Assembly: GCA_963565915.1 (NCBI GenBank) | Contig: OY751491.1 | Coordinates: 186,001 to 250,000, forward strand | Source of the DNA: Entoloma clypeatum | Taxonomy: Eukaryota > Basidiomycota > Agaricomycetes > Agaricales > Entolomataceae | Length of the DNA: 64,000 nucleotides | Reading direction: 5' to 3' | Shown: positions 19,661-35,691 of the stretch, piece by piece | Numbering within the stretch: position 1 is the first letter of the stretch | Layout of the letters: each line of letters starts with the position of its first letter | Notes under the pieces: model-generated | What the model was told of the DNA's origin: nothing | The model's database searches: none | What the model saw: only the letters and a program-made list of their open reading frames with translations | Program-made: the position numbers and the translations under genes

Positions 19661-20261
19661 TAATATGTTTTAGCTATGTTTTCACCATGTTTCACTCAAT
19701 TCTTAACCTTTGTGACTCTGAGCAAGAGTTTATATACAAGCTAGAAATGTATTCCACTCAGTTGTAGCTTCAAAACAAGCCTTAGACCAATGAAATTGGA
19801 CTATAAATATCTAGAATATTATGCAGATTACTGAAAAATCTCCAAAAAGTGTAGAATATTAAGGGGGGGGGGGGTTGGAGGTGTATCCCAAAGGGCAAAA
19901 AGAAAAATCTAGACTGAACTGCAGTCTAAATTTTCTAAAACATATAGACCTAGACCGTGGTTCAGTCCAATGTGGTCTATTTTTCAGTTCAGTTCAGTCT
20001 GGTTCAGGTCTATGTAGACTGAACCTTTGAACACTAGATGTAGTGTTTCAAGATCCAGTTTACCTTCGTTGATTTCAGACCGAGACCAGACCGCCAGTCT
20101 TGGTTTTTAAGGTTTTGGATCACGGCTGGTCTTTGGTTCACTCAAAACTTTAGAATTTGAAAGACCAGCCAAAGACCAGTTTGGATCAGTTTAAACCGGT
20201 ATTTTCCACAGAACAATCCGAGGAACGGAAATCAAGATCACGAAACGGAAAAGTGCAAATT

Positions 20262-20346: not shown

Positions 20347-20835
20347 TCCATTATATCTGGTGCATCACACTCATTCTACATCACAACTTTCCCACTTCCC
20401 AAATAGGCACACCTAAAAAAAACACAAAAGGTGTGTGTGCGTGCTAGTACAAATGTTGTGCAAAGGAGGAAGCTAGAAAATGTTGTTTTTTGTGTTTGAA
20501 AACACCATGCCACACTGTTCATCATGATTTACATTGTGTTTTGATGCATCAATTTGGAGCACCAACTTTCTACCATCCATAGCTCATGTATATAACTCTA
20601 TATATTCTTCCTATGAGTTTCTAGATATGTCTACATAAGGTAAGAATTGTCTTTGTGGGTTTTGGTGCGACGGTTTGGATATTGAGGGCATGATTTTCAA
20701 TGACGTGCATGGCTTGGCATTGATGCCAAGCATGCTCGGCAATTGCCAAAAGTCGAACCATAACTGCCAGCAAAACCTTCCCACCCTTTTTTAATCCCCC
20801 ACCACCATTCCACCCGGCCACCACATCCGCCCAAG

Positions 20836-21400
20836 GGCCACTCCTTGCGCATAACGGCCACCACTCATGCCCAACGGCCCTCTCTTCCACCCAACGGCCA
20901 CCTTTGATGCCCAATGGCATCCCTTTGCGCCCAACGGTCCCGACTCATGCCCAATGGCATCCCTTCACCCTCAACACATCAATCCATGCCCAATGCTGTC
21001 CTTTCGTCCCCAACGCCATCCCTTTGCTCCCAACGCTGTCGACCCATGCCCAACGGTCCCGACTTGTGCCCACCGCCATTGACCCACGCCATGCCTTCCC
21101 TTTGCCCTCAACGCCATCAACCCACGCACAACAGCTGCCTTTCACGCCCAACGGCTGCCTCATGTCCCCAACGGCCGCCCCTCTTGCCCAACCACCCCAA
21201 CTAGTGCCTCATGGGCCCTCTAATGCCCAATGGCTGCCTCGCGTCCTCAATGCCGTCGACTCACACCCAGCACCCTTCCTTGTCGTGTGCAACGGCCTCC
21301 CTTCGCGCCGTACGGCTCCGCGCACCTGCCACGACATGTGCCCAATGGCCCCCTTTCACACCCAACAGCATTGAGTCATGCCCCAGAGCACATGGGGCTG
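20836..21400 (+). repeat. GCCCAACGGCC minisatellite array
   Basis: About 25 units of 20-25 bases with GCCCAACG(G/C)C cores separated by CTC/CAC-rich spacers. Lies inside the nested hAT-like element and begins right after the conserved CTTTTTTAATCCCCCACC module. Confidence 0.8.
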
Positions 21401-21996: not shown

Positions 21997-22121
21997 TCTG
22001 AACTGCAGTCTAAATTTTCTAAAACATATAGACCTTAGACCGCGGTTCAGTCCAACATGGTCTATTTTTCAGTTCAGTTCAGTCCAGTTCAGGTCTATGT
22101 AGACTGAACCTTTGAACACTA
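21997..22121 (+). repeat. hAT-like terminal 125 bp, second copy
   Basis: Near-identical direct repeat of 19912-20036, from GAACTGCAGTC to the AACACTA terminus. Differences are mainly transitions. Confidence 0.75.
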
Positions 22122-22320: not shown

Positions 22321-22797
22321 TTAGGATTTACAACAAATTAAACATACACAAGGTGCTGCCAACAATGCATTCATATTTTGAAAAATGCTTTGCTCAACAG
22401 CCCATTCTGCAACTTTGAAAATAGTGTTTATCTGTTCTTTGGCTGATATGGTCCAGGATGCGACAGGGGCATGATGCCTTTTGAGATTGTTGGCGATCCA
22501 TAGGCTCATCTGTCGCGCGTGATCTATGTGTCCAAGGGAAGGGGGTATTTGAATGGCGAGGGGTGGTGGGGAATGAACCACAGTGTTGACGGCGAGCATT
22601 GTGGTGGTTTCATAAGTGAATGTGATGAAGGTGACAGTGGTCGCAAGGGGGTCTTTGGTCAATTTTGTGGAAATATGTTGTGGTGAAGATGGGCATAGCC
22701 ATGCGAGTACAGAGAGGGGGATTAGAGTGTGGCTGTGATATGTGATCACATGATGCAGATGTTTGACATTGTGATGCCGCAGCTTTAGAGGTTGCAT
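22321..22797 (-). CDS. Unrecognised 158-residue ORF
   Basis: The second half has natural-looking helical composition (QMSLWIANNLKRHHAPVAS, then EQINTIFKVAEWAVEQS). The first half is less protein-like. It lies between the promoter side of JmjC-like copy A and the hairpin tract. No family assigned. Confidence 0.3.
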   Translation of the reverse strand: MQPLKLRHHNVKHLHHVITYHSHTLIPLSVLAWLCPSSPQHISTKLTKDPLATTVTFITFTYETTTMLAVNTVVHSPPPLAIQIPPSLGHIDHARQMSLWIANNLKRHHAPVASWTISAKEQINTIFKVAEWAVEQSIFQNMNALLAAPCVCLICCKS

Positions 22798-24744
22798 GCA
22801 TGGGGCATGTGAAGGTGTGTAGCACCTTTCTTGGTACCAGGGAATGGCACAACATGTGCCGTTTTGTCATTTGCTAACCAATTTTTCATTTTGAGGGACA
22901 TTGTCCCTCTAGGATTTCTTTTTCCATTGTTGGTCGACTACTGGGAGTCAACCCCATCTTGTTATGCATTGACGAGGAGAGCTTCAGCTCGTCTTCATCA
23001 ACTGCTTCTTCATTCGCCAACGCCGCCCCATTGCTGGCGTTCATCACTGACGGACGACTCCTGGTTGAGGGGCGATTGTCGTCCCTCCTTTCTTGTTGTC
23101 AACCACCTTCACATCAACCCTGTTCTGTCCCACCTCAATGAGGGAGAGCTTTGGCTTGCCCTTGTATCAAGGTGTCGACACTGTCCAATTGCTGGCGTCC
23201 ATCATCACTGACGACTCTCTGTGGAGTGGCGTATATTGTCCCTCCATTCATTATTGGTCGATTCTTCTGAATCGACCTCGTCCAGACACATCTGAAGGCA
23301 CATAGTACCTTCTTCTTGTTGGGGGGACGATGCCATGGGTGTCGTTCATTGTTATTGATGAAACCTGGCTCAAGCAGTGCTAATTAATGGTGGGCATTCA
23401 ACCTCTCACTATGCAGAGCCTTGGAATGCACATCGTTGCACATCATTCATGTATAGGGAGGTACATTGTACCTCCACTTGCAAGTGGGGACAATGCCATT
23501 GGCATTACTGATGACATTTGTCGTCATCCAGATAGGCTGCGACTAGGATGCACATCATTGCACATCAACTGGACTTATGAAGGTACGTGGTACCTTCTGT
23601 CTCAATTGGGGATGGCACATCGGGCGTCATCTGTTGTTTGTTAATGACTGTCCTGTCATCCCCCTAGGTCCTATCTCCATTATAAACTGACTCATAAGTC
23701 AGTTCCTATATGACAAGGTGCAGGGAATGTTAGGTTCCCTGTGGCAATCAGATGGTCATCTGATTGTTGAGGTATAAACCCGACGTGCTGCAGGTTCCTT
23801 TGTACCTGCTTAGTATTCGTCGAGTAGGTCGGGATACCTTGTACCCAATTAGAGTACATGGACGGTGCCATCGGCGCCGTCAATTCAATCACAATTTCTT
23901 CAACTAGAATGACATCCTGTGTCGTTCATGAGATCAGTGGGAGATGCTGGGGCAATTGCTACCCCATTTCCTCCCCTTCTTGCTTCATTCCTACTCTTGA
24001 AGCACATCTTGAGGGTCCTGAGTTGGCCCTTGTTTTGCCAGTTGGGGACATTCATTTTCCCCTGTTGTGTTTCACGACTTTTTCATTTCCAAATGATGTG
24101 TTGTCATTTTGGAAACTGGATGATATTACATCTCCAGTTTTGTTGGGGAGACCTTTTGAGTTCCCCAGGTCCATTTTCTGGATGACATTCATTGTCGTCT
24201 GATGTTCTTTTCTCATGTACCGGCTTCACATCAGTACTCATCTCTGTTTCAGGCTCAAATGAGCCTGAGGATTTTATGAAGGTTCTATTGAACCTTCTCA
24301 ACTTTTCTGCAGCGTTTTCACACCGTTTGATGATTGTTACCGAACTTTTCATGAATGACTGGTATCATCCTATATCTCTATTTAACCAAATCAATTTGGT
24401 TAACCATTCTATCATAACCAAGGGGCCTCTTGACTCCTCCATGGTTGACAATGACCACATCTTTGGTCATTCTCATCATGGGTGACTCTCAAGTCATCCT
24501 TGGTGCAGGTTCTTTCAAACCTGCTTGATTTCATGGCACATTTTCTTCAAATGTGCAAGGTGTATTGACACCTTGTACATTACAATGCAGTGCTATTGTA
24601 CCACCTGTCATTTGACAACTATTGTGGGAATGACACCTGTCATTCCCATGGTTCTCATGTTTCACGGTCATCTCTGTCCATGCAGGTTTATTTAAACCTG
24701 CTTGTTCCATTTTTGGGGTGGTTTCATGGGACAACTATGTTCCC

Positions 24745-25350
24745 ATTTCCTCCCCTTCTTGCTTCATACCACGACAAAGTACTTCAGAGTTCCTGTGAGG
24801 CAACTTCCCTCACTCATCCTGTGGGGATAATATATCCCTTCTCATTTGCAACGACCTTTCTATTCTTCCAGATGATGGTATCTCTGTATGCCATCTTTAT
24901 ATTGGGGCTTATATTCCCCAAGTCGTGGTCCATGACTTTTTGTTCAACGAACAACCTATGTTCATTTTTCATTGGCAAGACTTTTGCCAAGTATATTATC
25001 TTTGCTGAGCTTAGCTTGCCATGTCGTTTGTTCATTTCTCGGGTTCACAAGAATCCCCATGTTCACATGAACCTATCATAAACAACATGTTGTTGTTTCT
25101 ATCTTTCTTCGGCATGAGCATCTTTCTTGCCTTTTGTACAATGGTATCTTCATATGCCATCTATGTACATGTTGTATGGGGACATATAATCCCCATGTCA
25201 TGGTTTGTGACTCTTAGTTCAATGAACTATAGTCATTTTTGTAGGCAAGATCTTTTGCCACCTATACTTTCTTCAGCGAGCTTAGCCCGCTGTATTCTCA
25301 GTTCACTTTTGGGGTTCACATTGATCCCCATGTCATTCATATGAATGACA
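24745..25350 (+). repeat. Diverged internal units of the hairpin tract
   Basis: 24860-25075 and 25140-25350 align with hairpins in the same order: ATGGTAT/ATGCCAT, TGGGG/CCCCA, GTTC/GAAC, GGCAA/TTGCC, a GCTTAGC zone, and a terminal GTTCAC or GTCATTCAT palindrome. A longer repeat also exists: CCTCCCCTTCTTGCTTCAT occurs at about 23970 and 24750, and a diverged form at about 25765. Confidence 0.65.
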
Positions 25351-26261
25351 ACTATACCAGTCTTCATTACTGGTTCTATATGAGACGACAACCTGTTGTT
25401 ATTGTCAACTTTATTTTCTTAAATGACATATTGTCATTTTCATATCATAAACAACACATTGTCATTTCTACTTTACTTTTGATGGTGTTGGTTCTTCAAC
25501 TTCACACCGTCCTTTCTATTTTATTGCCAGAAGGTACATGGTACCTTCCTCGTGTATTGTAGATGGTGCTATTGCCATCTATAGTCTTTCGCAACTATTT
25601 CATAGTATGGCCTTTATGGCCATAAATTGGAAAGGGAAAAATCTTGCATTGTGGAATTATGTGGTATGATATAGGTGCCGTTGTCACCTATTCATCAGGG
25701 GAGATGTCCCCTCCTCTGCCTCCTTCCAAAATGTTCCACAGGTTTCTTGGAATCCCCGCTTTCCCCCTTTCTTGCTTCATTCATAATAAAACAAATTATT
25801 GTTGGGGGTTTGAGGTCTTTGAGACACTACAATTGTCTCAGAGGGCAATTTCTATCATCCACGGAATGTGGAAATGACAGACTCAGTGTCCGTCTATTCT
25901 GTCAGATGGGTCTCTATGAGTCTCTATCCATTACAAATTATATGGAGGACACTTGTGGTTCTCCCTCATCTCCTTCGGCAGGACTTTTTGGTGCCCTGCA
26001 TGTCGCCAACTTTATACTTGGTGAAATCTGACCTCTTGAGGCAACATAGTCACCTCAGGTTTTACGGAGGACACTTTTGTCCTTCCTTTTGCCATTTTGC
26101 GGCGACCACTTTTAGTGGGCCGCCTGTCGCCGACTTTATATTCAGCACAATCTGATTTCCAATGTGGTGTCTGTCACCACAGCTTTTGACAAACCGTTGC
26201 AGACAACAATAACCTTGGCATCTACTTTCACGACCTTAGTGATGCTTGTCGCTATGCTGTA

Positions 26262-26560
26262 ACTTTAGTTTCTCCATGGACAATATTTATATCATCCATT
26301 TCGTCACTTGCAACAACAATTGTTGTTGCTGTAGCTGCTGGTTCTTGACTTTTGCAGATGACAACTTTGTTGTCTTCCTTTGCAACTTCAGCGACATTTG
26401 TTGCTGCTATCTCAGTACTTTGTGCTGTAATTATATTATTTCCATAGACAACTTTCATGTCATCCACTCTGTCAATTGCAACAACTATATTTGTTGTCGC
26501 AGCAGCTCCAATAGCTGCTGAATCTTTTCTATTGCAGACGACAACCTTGTCGTCTAGTTT
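26262..26560 (+). repeat. Two-copy repeat, about 180 bp, within the hairpin tract
   Basis: The segment from CCATGGACAA near 26274 recurs as CCATAGACAA near 26442. Both copies carry a CAACAACAA/TTGTTGTTG-type hairpin, an AGC/GCT-rich block and a GACGACAA/TTGTCGTC-type hairpin, with several arm changes. A 154-residue minus-strand frame (26716-26252) spans both copies and shows the repeat as DDxxVV words. Confidence 0.65.
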
Positions 26561-27745
26561 CCGATTTTTAATGACATTTTTTGTCATTGTTGCGGCACAC
26601 ATTGCCGCAGGGCTTCTACTCTCTTGGACGACATTATTCTCATCCAGACTCTTGTGTATATGATGTTCCAACCTGCGGACATCTTGTTTTTTGGGTGCAA
26701 CCATTTGAAGCACCAAACAAACTTCACAAGTTCATTCTCTGGTGGTCATGGCTTGACCACTCTGCTTCATTATGAAGCAAACAATCTTTTCATTACACAT
26801 AGAGCACAATTTTGTGCTCTCATCGTCAGTTGACACATGTTGACTTTCACTACTCTTGCGATATTGATGGTGGCGTTTTCGTCGCCGTCTCTTCTTCTCT
26901 ACTGTGACAGAGTCTTCTGTACTCTGTCTCTCTTTCTCATTGTCTCTTTGACAGTGAATATTTCACTGTTCAGTATCATTCTCGCCTGGGTTATGTTGAC
27001 CCAGATGTTCGTGTTTATTTCGATGAGCTTGTTCTCGTCAATAACGAACCTGTTGTTTGTTACTCACAGTCCAGTGTAGTCTATTTGACCCATCATTGCT
27101 GGGCAATGAGATCTTTTCATCTTGAGGGTTATTAGAATCCTTTCAGGTACGATTTTCATGGTGAACTTTGGAAGTTCAGAGAACTTCCAGCCCATTTTGG
27201 GCTCTCGCCATGCATTCGCAGTTGACGGCATCTTTCGGACCACAAATGTGGTGCCGATTCTTCTGTTGAGGGTAAACATACCCTCGGAACTCTTGTTTTC
27301 ATTGTTGGTGGTGATTTCGCAACCCATTCCGACAGCCATGAAGGCTGTTGATCTGCCTTCGATAAAGGTCTTTGAATTTCAAGACCTTCTTTTGAAGTTT
27401 ATGGAACTTGCATCCCGCCGAGACTGTCTATGTCTCTTTTGCAATTCAATTTGGCAATGATTTCTGGAGTCTCTTCATTGACTCTGGAGGAGGTTATTTT
27501 AACCTCCGTTTCTTGATTCATATTAATAGAAATGTTTCCGTTCTCTTCTTTAGACTCTTTGAGAGAGTTAGAAGACACAGAAGTCTTCCGTTCTAGTCCA
27601 TCAACTACATGTTGTGGATTTATTGAACTCTCAATTGAAGACTTAATAGTCTTCACTTCTTCACGATCCACTTGGAGTGGTGGTCAACACCATCTCCATG
27701 GTTCAGAAGTTGATGAGGCTTCTCCATTTGAAGACATAACTGTCT

Positions 27746-28531
27746 TCATATCTCCGTTCTGTTGAACAGAGTGATATTCTGAGTCACCTCTCCAACTGTT
27801 GAGAGGTTCAGATGGTTCGCATTCATTTTGGAAGACTTCACAGCCTTCCTCTTCATCTTAAAGACATGCTCAACATATCGGACCACTTCTCCATAGAGGT
27901 CCTTGTAATATGCTGGAGGTTTATGAGCCTCTATAGGTGCATATGGCTTTGTGCACCTGTCCAACTCCATATTGAGTTCACGGACAAATGACCACTTGAA
28001 GTGGTCAATATACTCTCTTTTGTCACATAGTGTATCGCGACCATACACCTCATTCACACTTGCAAGAGTGAATCTATGAGCTTCGTAGCTCATATACTTG
28101 AGATGGTCATTATCGATAACCATCAGAATGATGGACCATAGTTCCATCTTGAAATCCATGATTAGCCTGTGGTCCAGCCACAGCATCTCCTTTGCAACTC
28201 TGCGAATGGTATCTCATTACCGAATTCTTGGTTTGACATAAGTTGACTGCGACGAGGCAGTCAAGTCCACCCTAGTAGACTTTGCTACATGTAATGTAGT
28301 ACATGCAGAATATGTAGACAAGGTCTCTAGTTTGTGATAACTGGACCTCAAGTCTTTTGAGAGGCTTCTTGATGTGTTCAATGCGGCAGAATGGCTCGGA
28401 AATGAGCCATTTCCATATAAGGAAATGCCAGCTGGCAGCAAAGGTGCCAGCTCATCCCAAAAAAGGGAGCCCTGAGTGAACTCCTGGGGGCCAGACAACT
28501 CAAAAGAGGCCATAAGCTGTGTGTAGAGCAC
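27746..28531 (-). pseudogene. Unrecognised protein with conserved-looking central domain, broken
   Basis: One minus-strand frame with adjacent TAA and TGA stops near 28217. The second part (28186-27746) has strongly protein-like composition: LWLDHRLIMDFKMELWSII, MSYEAHRFTLASVNEVYG, YIDHFKWSFVRELNMELD, then AYYKDLYGEVVRYVEHVFK. I do not recognise the family. Downstream on the same strand, frames at 27671-27399 and 27339-27064 (Ser/Glu/Lys-rich) suggest that the coding region once continued into the hairpin tract in shifted frames. It could be a transposon protein or a host gene. Confidence 0.45.
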
Positions 28532-28929
28532 AGCTAGGCAGCAGATAAAGAGGAGGCTTCAAAGTGAAGCCTCTGGGCCAGATGGGGTTGGTGCAGCTAG
28601 AAAGCTGATAGCAATGGGGGTGTTCCCCTGTAGCAGGTAATAGCAGTTAAGGATAGCTTAAAAATGTAACAAGTCTGTTACAGGAAAAGCCCTCAATCTC
28701 ACAGAACAAGGTAAGCTTGACCAAAATCTGGTATTGGCTGTACAATGTCTGCGAGGTAAAACAGCTTTTCGTTACAGGGGTGAGTTTTCTTAGTCCCACA
28801 AGTGCATAAGACCCATTCTATAGCTGAGATAGGGCAGATACAATGTAGTGGTAGACAAGGAGAATGCTAAGGAAGTGGCTGTGCTATGTGTAAGCAATGA
28901 TACCCAGCACATCTGTTACACTCATCTTC

Positions 28930-35160: not shown

Positions 35161-35691
35161 GGTGAAGAGAGTTCTTTACTTTCCCCCATGTCCTCTGGCA
35201 GAATCCTGTAGGAATTCTGTCAGAATTTCAGATTCTGACAGGAATCCTCCAGGAATTTTTGCCATATATTTGAGTGAGAATTGCTGTAAAATTCCGCCAG
35301 GATTCTGCTAGGATTCCTCCAGGAATCCAAAAGAAATGAAATTCCTATCAGAATCCTTGATAGGAATGGTGACAATCCTGGGAGGAATTCTGCAGGAATT
35401 CCTGCCCAGAAATACCAAAGTTCAATAACAGGGTCAGGTGACCTAGGTGGTCGACATTCAGCAACTTCTGAACATTGATCAGTGTTGTCACATTGTGATG
35501 GCTGATGACCATCTTGTCCTCCCGCCACCACCACTCTTGCCTCTCGCTTGCCGCCCCCTGCTCCTCACCACCTCCACGGCTGCCACAACCCCGCAGCCTC
35601 CACCGCAGCCACTGCTGTCAAGACAAATGGGGACCCCTGGGCCCCCACCACCCAGTAAGCCGCACCCCCACCCCAGCCGAACGCCAACAAC

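Follow-up and report, generated by a model that had tools for sequence, protein, structure and literature searches.

Positions 22771 to 28664 of a 64,000-nucleotide stretch of the Entoloma clypeatum genome (GenBank assembly GCA_963565915.1, contig OY751491.1, positions 186,001 to 250,000; hereafter the window) are the 5.9-kb interior of a dispersed long terminal repeat (LTR) element. The element resembles the large retrotransposon derivatives (LARDs), has no detected protein family and is likely a non-autonomous retrotransposon. An LTR element without detected proteins is of a known kind. The new feature is the interior, a dense array of short hairpins with a ceiling of 8 bp on stem length. 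The explanation favoured here, tentatively and at somewhat less than an even chance, is that hairpins with stems of about 8 bp became numerous through the tandem duplication of small units, and that template switching in the course of retro-copying has preserved the match between their arms. It is closely rivalled by selection for RNA structure. The two parts of the element present in the window are as follows.

22771..28664, forward strand: hairpin-array interior of the window copy, defined by family similarity and 132 stems, with the orientation taken from the LTRs
28666..28776, forward strand: shortened right LTR remnant, in which the first 99 of the 185 LTR positions align and the remainder is internally deleted

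Copies of the tract were sought in 60.08 Mb of the genome, on 20 contigs. A 551-base piece gave 17 matches including itself, at 87-100% identity. Family similarity was placed on the window in 14 other aligned rows, of which C2a reaches furthest left, from 22771. Row C2b is a composite of two loci that lie on opposite strands of contig 2 (L035 and L036), so that the 14 rows represent 15 loci. Window positions 28665-28761 resemble a short sequence found at both ends of other copies, the 185-bp LTR, which is complete at L038:86-270. This LTR has 33 matches in the genome, five of them partial. Besides that of the window, five left LTRs (L028, L031, L036, L038 and L041) and six right LTRs were read in the fetched copies, with the query match extending to position 186 in the left and 185 in the right. 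The left LTR of the C15 copy has ends of the TG...CA type (TGTAACA...TGTTACA). A constant TATC...TTCAA stretch lies directly inward of the left LTRs, and a constant stretch (...AGCTTAAAAAA) lies just inside the right LTRs; here, where a polypurine tract would be looked for, the last bases ahead of the right LTR are TTAAAAAA. The outer flanks differ between copies at both ends. In both of the two copies with both outer flanks available, 5-bp target-site duplications match (AGCAT in C15, AGAGG in C10b). The dispersed copies, LTRs and target duplications support an earlier note on this DNA in listing a mobile element among its possible explanations. Among the fetched loci, which are part of the 33 LTR loci, none showed a coding element with this LTR.

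The window copy lacks the left LTR and about 0.7 kb of leader. The extent first proposed for the tract, 22846..28681, lies within a larger unit that runs from about 22771 to the end of the LTR remnant, probably at 28776, judging by the terminal GTTACA.

The density of hairpins was measured in 22846-28681 as non-overlapping perfect inverted repeats with loops of 2-8 bases, against 30 dinucleotide shuffles. There are 75 hairpins with arms of at least 6 bp (shuffle mean 8.6, s.d. 2.2, maximum 14), 51 with arms of at least 7 (2.4, maximum 6) and 33 with arms of at least 8 (0.33, maximum 2), a clear excess over shuffled sequence. With arms of at least 7 and loops of 3-8, the interior 22771-28664 holds 8.65 per kb (shuffled 0.35). 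The two remaining parts of the window hold 0.88 and 1.14 per kb, where shuffling gives 0.36 and 0.39. RNA folding in 200-base windows gave mean z-scores of -3.77 on the plus strand and -3.88 on the minus strand within the tract (n=29), and of -0.61 and -0.85 outside it (n=29). The tract is not a satellite, as the earlier note had stated: Tandem Repeats Finder at a score of 40 returned 0 rows, and the only tandem repetition is a pair of old blocks, A and B, and a three-copy 44-nt word. Mismatch-tolerant calling found 132 stems, 110 of them with arms of at least 6, at a median centre-to-centre spacing of 37.5 bases. The stems and their loops cover 2,665 of 5,894 bases; the dense array is real, but the description of a tract built almost entirely of hairpins was too strong.

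The stems share a length rule. In perfect stems of the window the chance of one further pair is 0.67, 0.71, 0.67 and 0.65 for stems of 4 to 7 bp and falls to 0.18 at 8 bp (Fisher p 4e-5 for the drop at the step from 8 to 9). The other copies, pooled, give 0.71, 0.69, 0.71 and 0.64, then 0.21. Outside the tract the same chance is flat, at 0.37-0.44 up to the step from 9 to 10. Outward from the loop, beyond a seed of five perfect pairs, the sixth to eighth positions are paired at frequencies of 0.71, 0.53 and 0.45, and the ninth at 0.23, the chance level. The arms were at first given as 6-10 bp, which does not hold, since longer arms occur only at the frequency of chance extension. Most loops have 3-4 nt, as in 31 of the 48 non-redundant 8-bp hairpins. 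Purines predominate in the 5' arm of 74 of the 110 stems, with the reverse in 20 and equality in 16, and G stands at about half of positions 4 and 5 of this arm; the bias is less marked in the tract's last quarter (8 versus 5). The 8-bp ceiling and the weak common arm motif suggest that the units descend from one ancestral hairpin.

Copies of the element differ by whole units at several sites. Hairpins are present in 12 of the 42 listed rows of indels of at least 15 nt, several rows belonging to one site. One 32-nt hairpin is missing from copy C5b. Further sites, from the stem and indel lists, and the old tandem duplication, from a comparison of its two blocks, are given below.

24382..24403, forward strand: hairpin beside a 32-nt insertion in C2a that repeats it as a tandem duplicate
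26345..26361, forward strand: site at which six other copies carry an extra 35/36-nt unit and the window does not; a perfect hairpin is listed for three of the four row sequences shown
27444..27445, forward strand: site at which six other copies carry an extra block of 51 or 63 nt and the window does not; the 63-nt sequence holds two hairpins
24870..25135, forward strand: block A of the old tandem duplication, with several hairpins
25136..25400, forward strand: block B, the partner of A, with hairpins at matching places and some arms changed or replaced

A relative of the array has a second host. Four loci (L040, L043, L044 and L045) carry 0.3-0.36 kb at 73-76% identity to window 22799-23151, lying within about 0.8 kb that bears further hairpins. 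The host element is about 1.56 kb long (L044 68-1624) and its ends resemble terminal inverted repeats (TIRs), CAGTCAAAACCGAACCTGG and CAGTGAAAATCGGACCTGG, as judged by eye in one copy. This host is probably a non-autonomous DNA transposon, and related arrays thus seem to occur in mobile elements of two classes. The right-hand part of the TIR element occurs in six further places.

A direct sign of template switching was found at one place in the tract, by comparison of copies.

24480..24524, forward strand: pair of adjacent hairpins; copy C5b (L022) has the exact reverse complement of each loop, CTCA/TGAG and CTTTCA/TGAAAG

Exactly inverted loops account for 7 of 11,137 hairpin comparisons, which reduce to these two distinct events, and no loop was reversed or merely complemented. 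The inversions sit in a 231-base stretch with 13 other differences, counted by eye. A looser test also gave a 3-nt change (ATT/AAT) and three partial resemblances, which were not counted. Monttinen and Loytynoja (2022, PMC8794818) regard loop inversion as indicating a template switch between strands.

Differences between copies are dominated by C>T and G>A, and 891 of 1,516 such changes are at CpG. A strong CpG change of this kind is the pattern of methylated repeats. Where the window has perfect stems, other copies differ at 6.2% of stem positions, 11.7% of loop positions and 11.9% of linker positions. The lower stem rate was rejected as a sign of constraint, because the choice of perfect window stems alone gives about half. 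As the stem rate is about half that of loops and linkers, just what picking intact stems in one copy gives, resident copies seem to decay uncorrected.

Under the favoured explanation, an ancestral 8-bp hairpin unit would have been multiplied in tandem as small units. The arms would be held complementary by arm-to-arm template switching during retro-copying and not by selection on the RNA. Since resident copies decay, arm correction is placed in the transposition cycle, within which the matching of the arms may be renewed. The proteins would be supplied by a helper element.

The closest rival holds that the array is selected as RNA structure: the transcript would fold into successive stem-loops, each stem of about 8 bp, to which a helper retrotransposon's capsid or nucleocapsid protein might bind when the transcript is packaged. 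This is a distinct possibility, held at less than even chance and somewhat below the copying explanation. The strong local folding of the tract and the ceiling of 8 bp both speak for it. Pairing is also far above that of controls with partners slid: 82.6% of cells are paired in the alignment of blocks A and B (A1), versus 40-48%, and 88.0% in that of the LTR and TIR elements (A2), versus 31-50%, although the structures were voted from the same sequences and so favour the unslid version. Against RNA selection, folding has no strand preference, the stem pair probability being 0.688 on the plus strand and 0.692 on the minus strand (p 0.67). With CpG masked, the majority pairs comprise 734 Watson-Crick, 10 G-T and 15 A-C. 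Natural RNA helices carry more G-U pairs than 10 in 759. Avoidance of cross-pairing between units was not found, complementary 7-mers numbering 298, versus 227 in shuffled sequence and 271 with the order of units shuffled. There were no Rfam matches at the gathering score in the window, and a related tract is carried by the element with TIRs. It is the equality of the strands, the lack of cross-pairing avoidance, the Watson-Crick stems and the loop inversions that favour unit duplication with arm-to-arm copying over RNA selection.

Several results weigh against the copying explanation. Conserved non-CpG interior mismatches number 12 G-T to 6 A-C. Strict interior single mismatches are 7:3 in the window and 39:26 in the other copies; with CpG, TpG and CpA masked they are 3:0 and 12:1, the copies in both cases not being independent. 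Such a lean to G-T counts against copying since RNA selection would produce it, and the counts of 12:6 and 12:1 are to the credit of that rival. The unpaired bases are strand-asymmetric (T 38%, A 21%), which a strand-neutral process leaves unexplained and which RNA selection, with its T-rich unpaired strand, may claim. Loop inversions are just two, both in one copy, and 30 of the 42 listed indel rows are without a hairpin. The extension steps under 8 bp (0.65-0.71) fall short of the expectation from decay alone, so that some stems were possibly always shorter. No usual tRNA primer-binding site was recognised after the left LTR; such a site usually begins with TGG, but the sequence here begins TATC...TTCAA. 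A cluster search for template switches gave 13 reverse-complement matches of at least 10 nt, against 0 and 0 in controls (4,511 tests), and 32 against 14 and 14 at 8 nt. It was not counted as independent evidence, because each hairpin of an array already offers such a match in its own second arm.

Compensatory change is likewise weak. In A1 there are 34 double-changed cells, versus 18.6 in shuffles; in A2 there are 21 cells versus 13.6, and the pairs, 8 against a shuffle mean of 9.0, are not above it. Covariation among close copies (52 cells in 21 pairs) was dropped as evidence, as many of the sites are CpG and decay on both arms mimics compensation. Many double changes in general sit at CpG sites and can arise by decay. 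Counts of G-T to A-C vary with the method used: besides those given above, the mismatch-tolerant stem set gives 19:18, and the products of single changes 175:138, or 65:66 once CpG is masked.

A broader form of the copying explanation is considered rather unlikely. It would make the array a new kind of non-coding mobile-element domain, modular, free in sequence and made of 8-bp hairpins, which multiplies as units, restores its own complementarity by arm-to-arm switching each time the element transposes, and was at some point transferred between LTR and TIR elements.

The array could instead be a mutational by-product, in which an unusual polymerase, snapping back repeatedly with an 8-nt ruler, fills non-coding mobile DNA with hairpins de novo, with no ancestral unit. 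Other mobile sequences are enriched too: another LTR has six hairpins in 261 bp (0.33 shuffled), and a stretch beside the right LTR of copy C2a has seven in 3.26 kb (1.4 shuffled). Loop inversions would fit as well. However, inspection by eye shows neither an 8-bp ceiling nor 5' arms rich in purines in the few hairpins of the other LTR, the length law for hairpins outside the tract is flat, and several copies differ by duplicated or missing units. This explanation is judged improbable. A role as a source of double-stranded or small RNA for the host or the element is very improbable: hairpins are dense on both strands, but the precursors that Dicer is known to cut are much longer than these stems of some 8 bp.

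As to the content of the tract, 22 open frames of at least 85 aa overlap it, and the 12 of these searched in Pfam gave no match at cut-off; the sole hit was a sub-threshold one to UL45 (E 0.0089, 16.1 bits against a cut-off of 27). On this basis a coding region was rejected. A search for tRNA genes gave none. The earlier note had offered a coding region reshaped by template-switch snap-back: the switching part gains from the two exact loop inversions in one copy, the coding origin does not. For a protein-binding DNA array, no shared site was seen, just the weak purine bias of the 5' arm.

Other hairpin-bearing and repeated sequences were recorded in the course of the analysis. At L029:1440-1700, another young and abundant family, likely represented there by its LTR, holds six perfect hairpins in 261 bp (0.33 shuffled). 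It has at least 40 matches at 98-100% identity among the 40 of 406 candidates scored, often paired about 5.86 kb apart. Beyond the right LTR of C2a, L027:5510-6450 is gag-like by eye and has six perfect hairpins in about 1 kb. In the window, an array of repeats spaced at 20 bp, with units of the GCCCAACGGC type, occupies 20815-21391. Near the truncated left end of the element, identical 35-bp repeats stand at 20002-20036 and 22087-22121, 2,085 bases apart, and are possibly the ends of another element. A cluster of longer hairpins with GGAATTCCT-like arms lies at 35200-35420. For the pol frame of a different element that also lies in the window, the best named matches are basidiomycete proteins, at about 55% identity (among the best 120 of 1,206).

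With LARDs of the Sukkula type the element shares an LTR pair, a large interior without detected proteins and dispersed copies. It differs in its short 185-bp LTR, its interior of mini-hairpins with an 8-bp ceiling and in that no primer-binding site of the usual kind was recognised. According to PMC7215508, the RNA secondary structures specified by LARDs are conserved, and three families with 118 copies are tabulated for another mushroom fungus, Laccaria bicolor (PMC3411680, available part). The terms 'hairpin' and 'secondary structure' do not occur in the accessible text of the latter. Terminal-repeat retrotransposons in miniature (TRIMs), Cassandra and others, are likewise LTR elements that code for no protein, have short LTRs and are predicted to form RNA structure, but are described as almost without internal domains (PMC7215508, available part), whereas the interior here is at least 5.9 kb. 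The hairpins attributed to template switching in PMC8794818 are similar in their perfect stems and loop inversion. Those events were in rRNA and microRNA genes, 'retro' not occurring in the accessible text, while here about a hundred units of common stem length lie inside a mobile element. No description of an LTR element with a hairpin-array interior was found among titles and the openings of abstracts, most subscription journals being outside reach.

The significance of the array depends on which explanation is true. If the arms are held by copying, the element would preserve, as a natural record, many instances of template switching at hairpins, with neighbouring unpaired sequence as a built-in control and a length rule that needs explanation. 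If RNA selection is true, it would be a retroelement without genes that carries a series of stem-loops as its payload, and the recognition of gene-free LTR elements by helper proteins would become directly testable.

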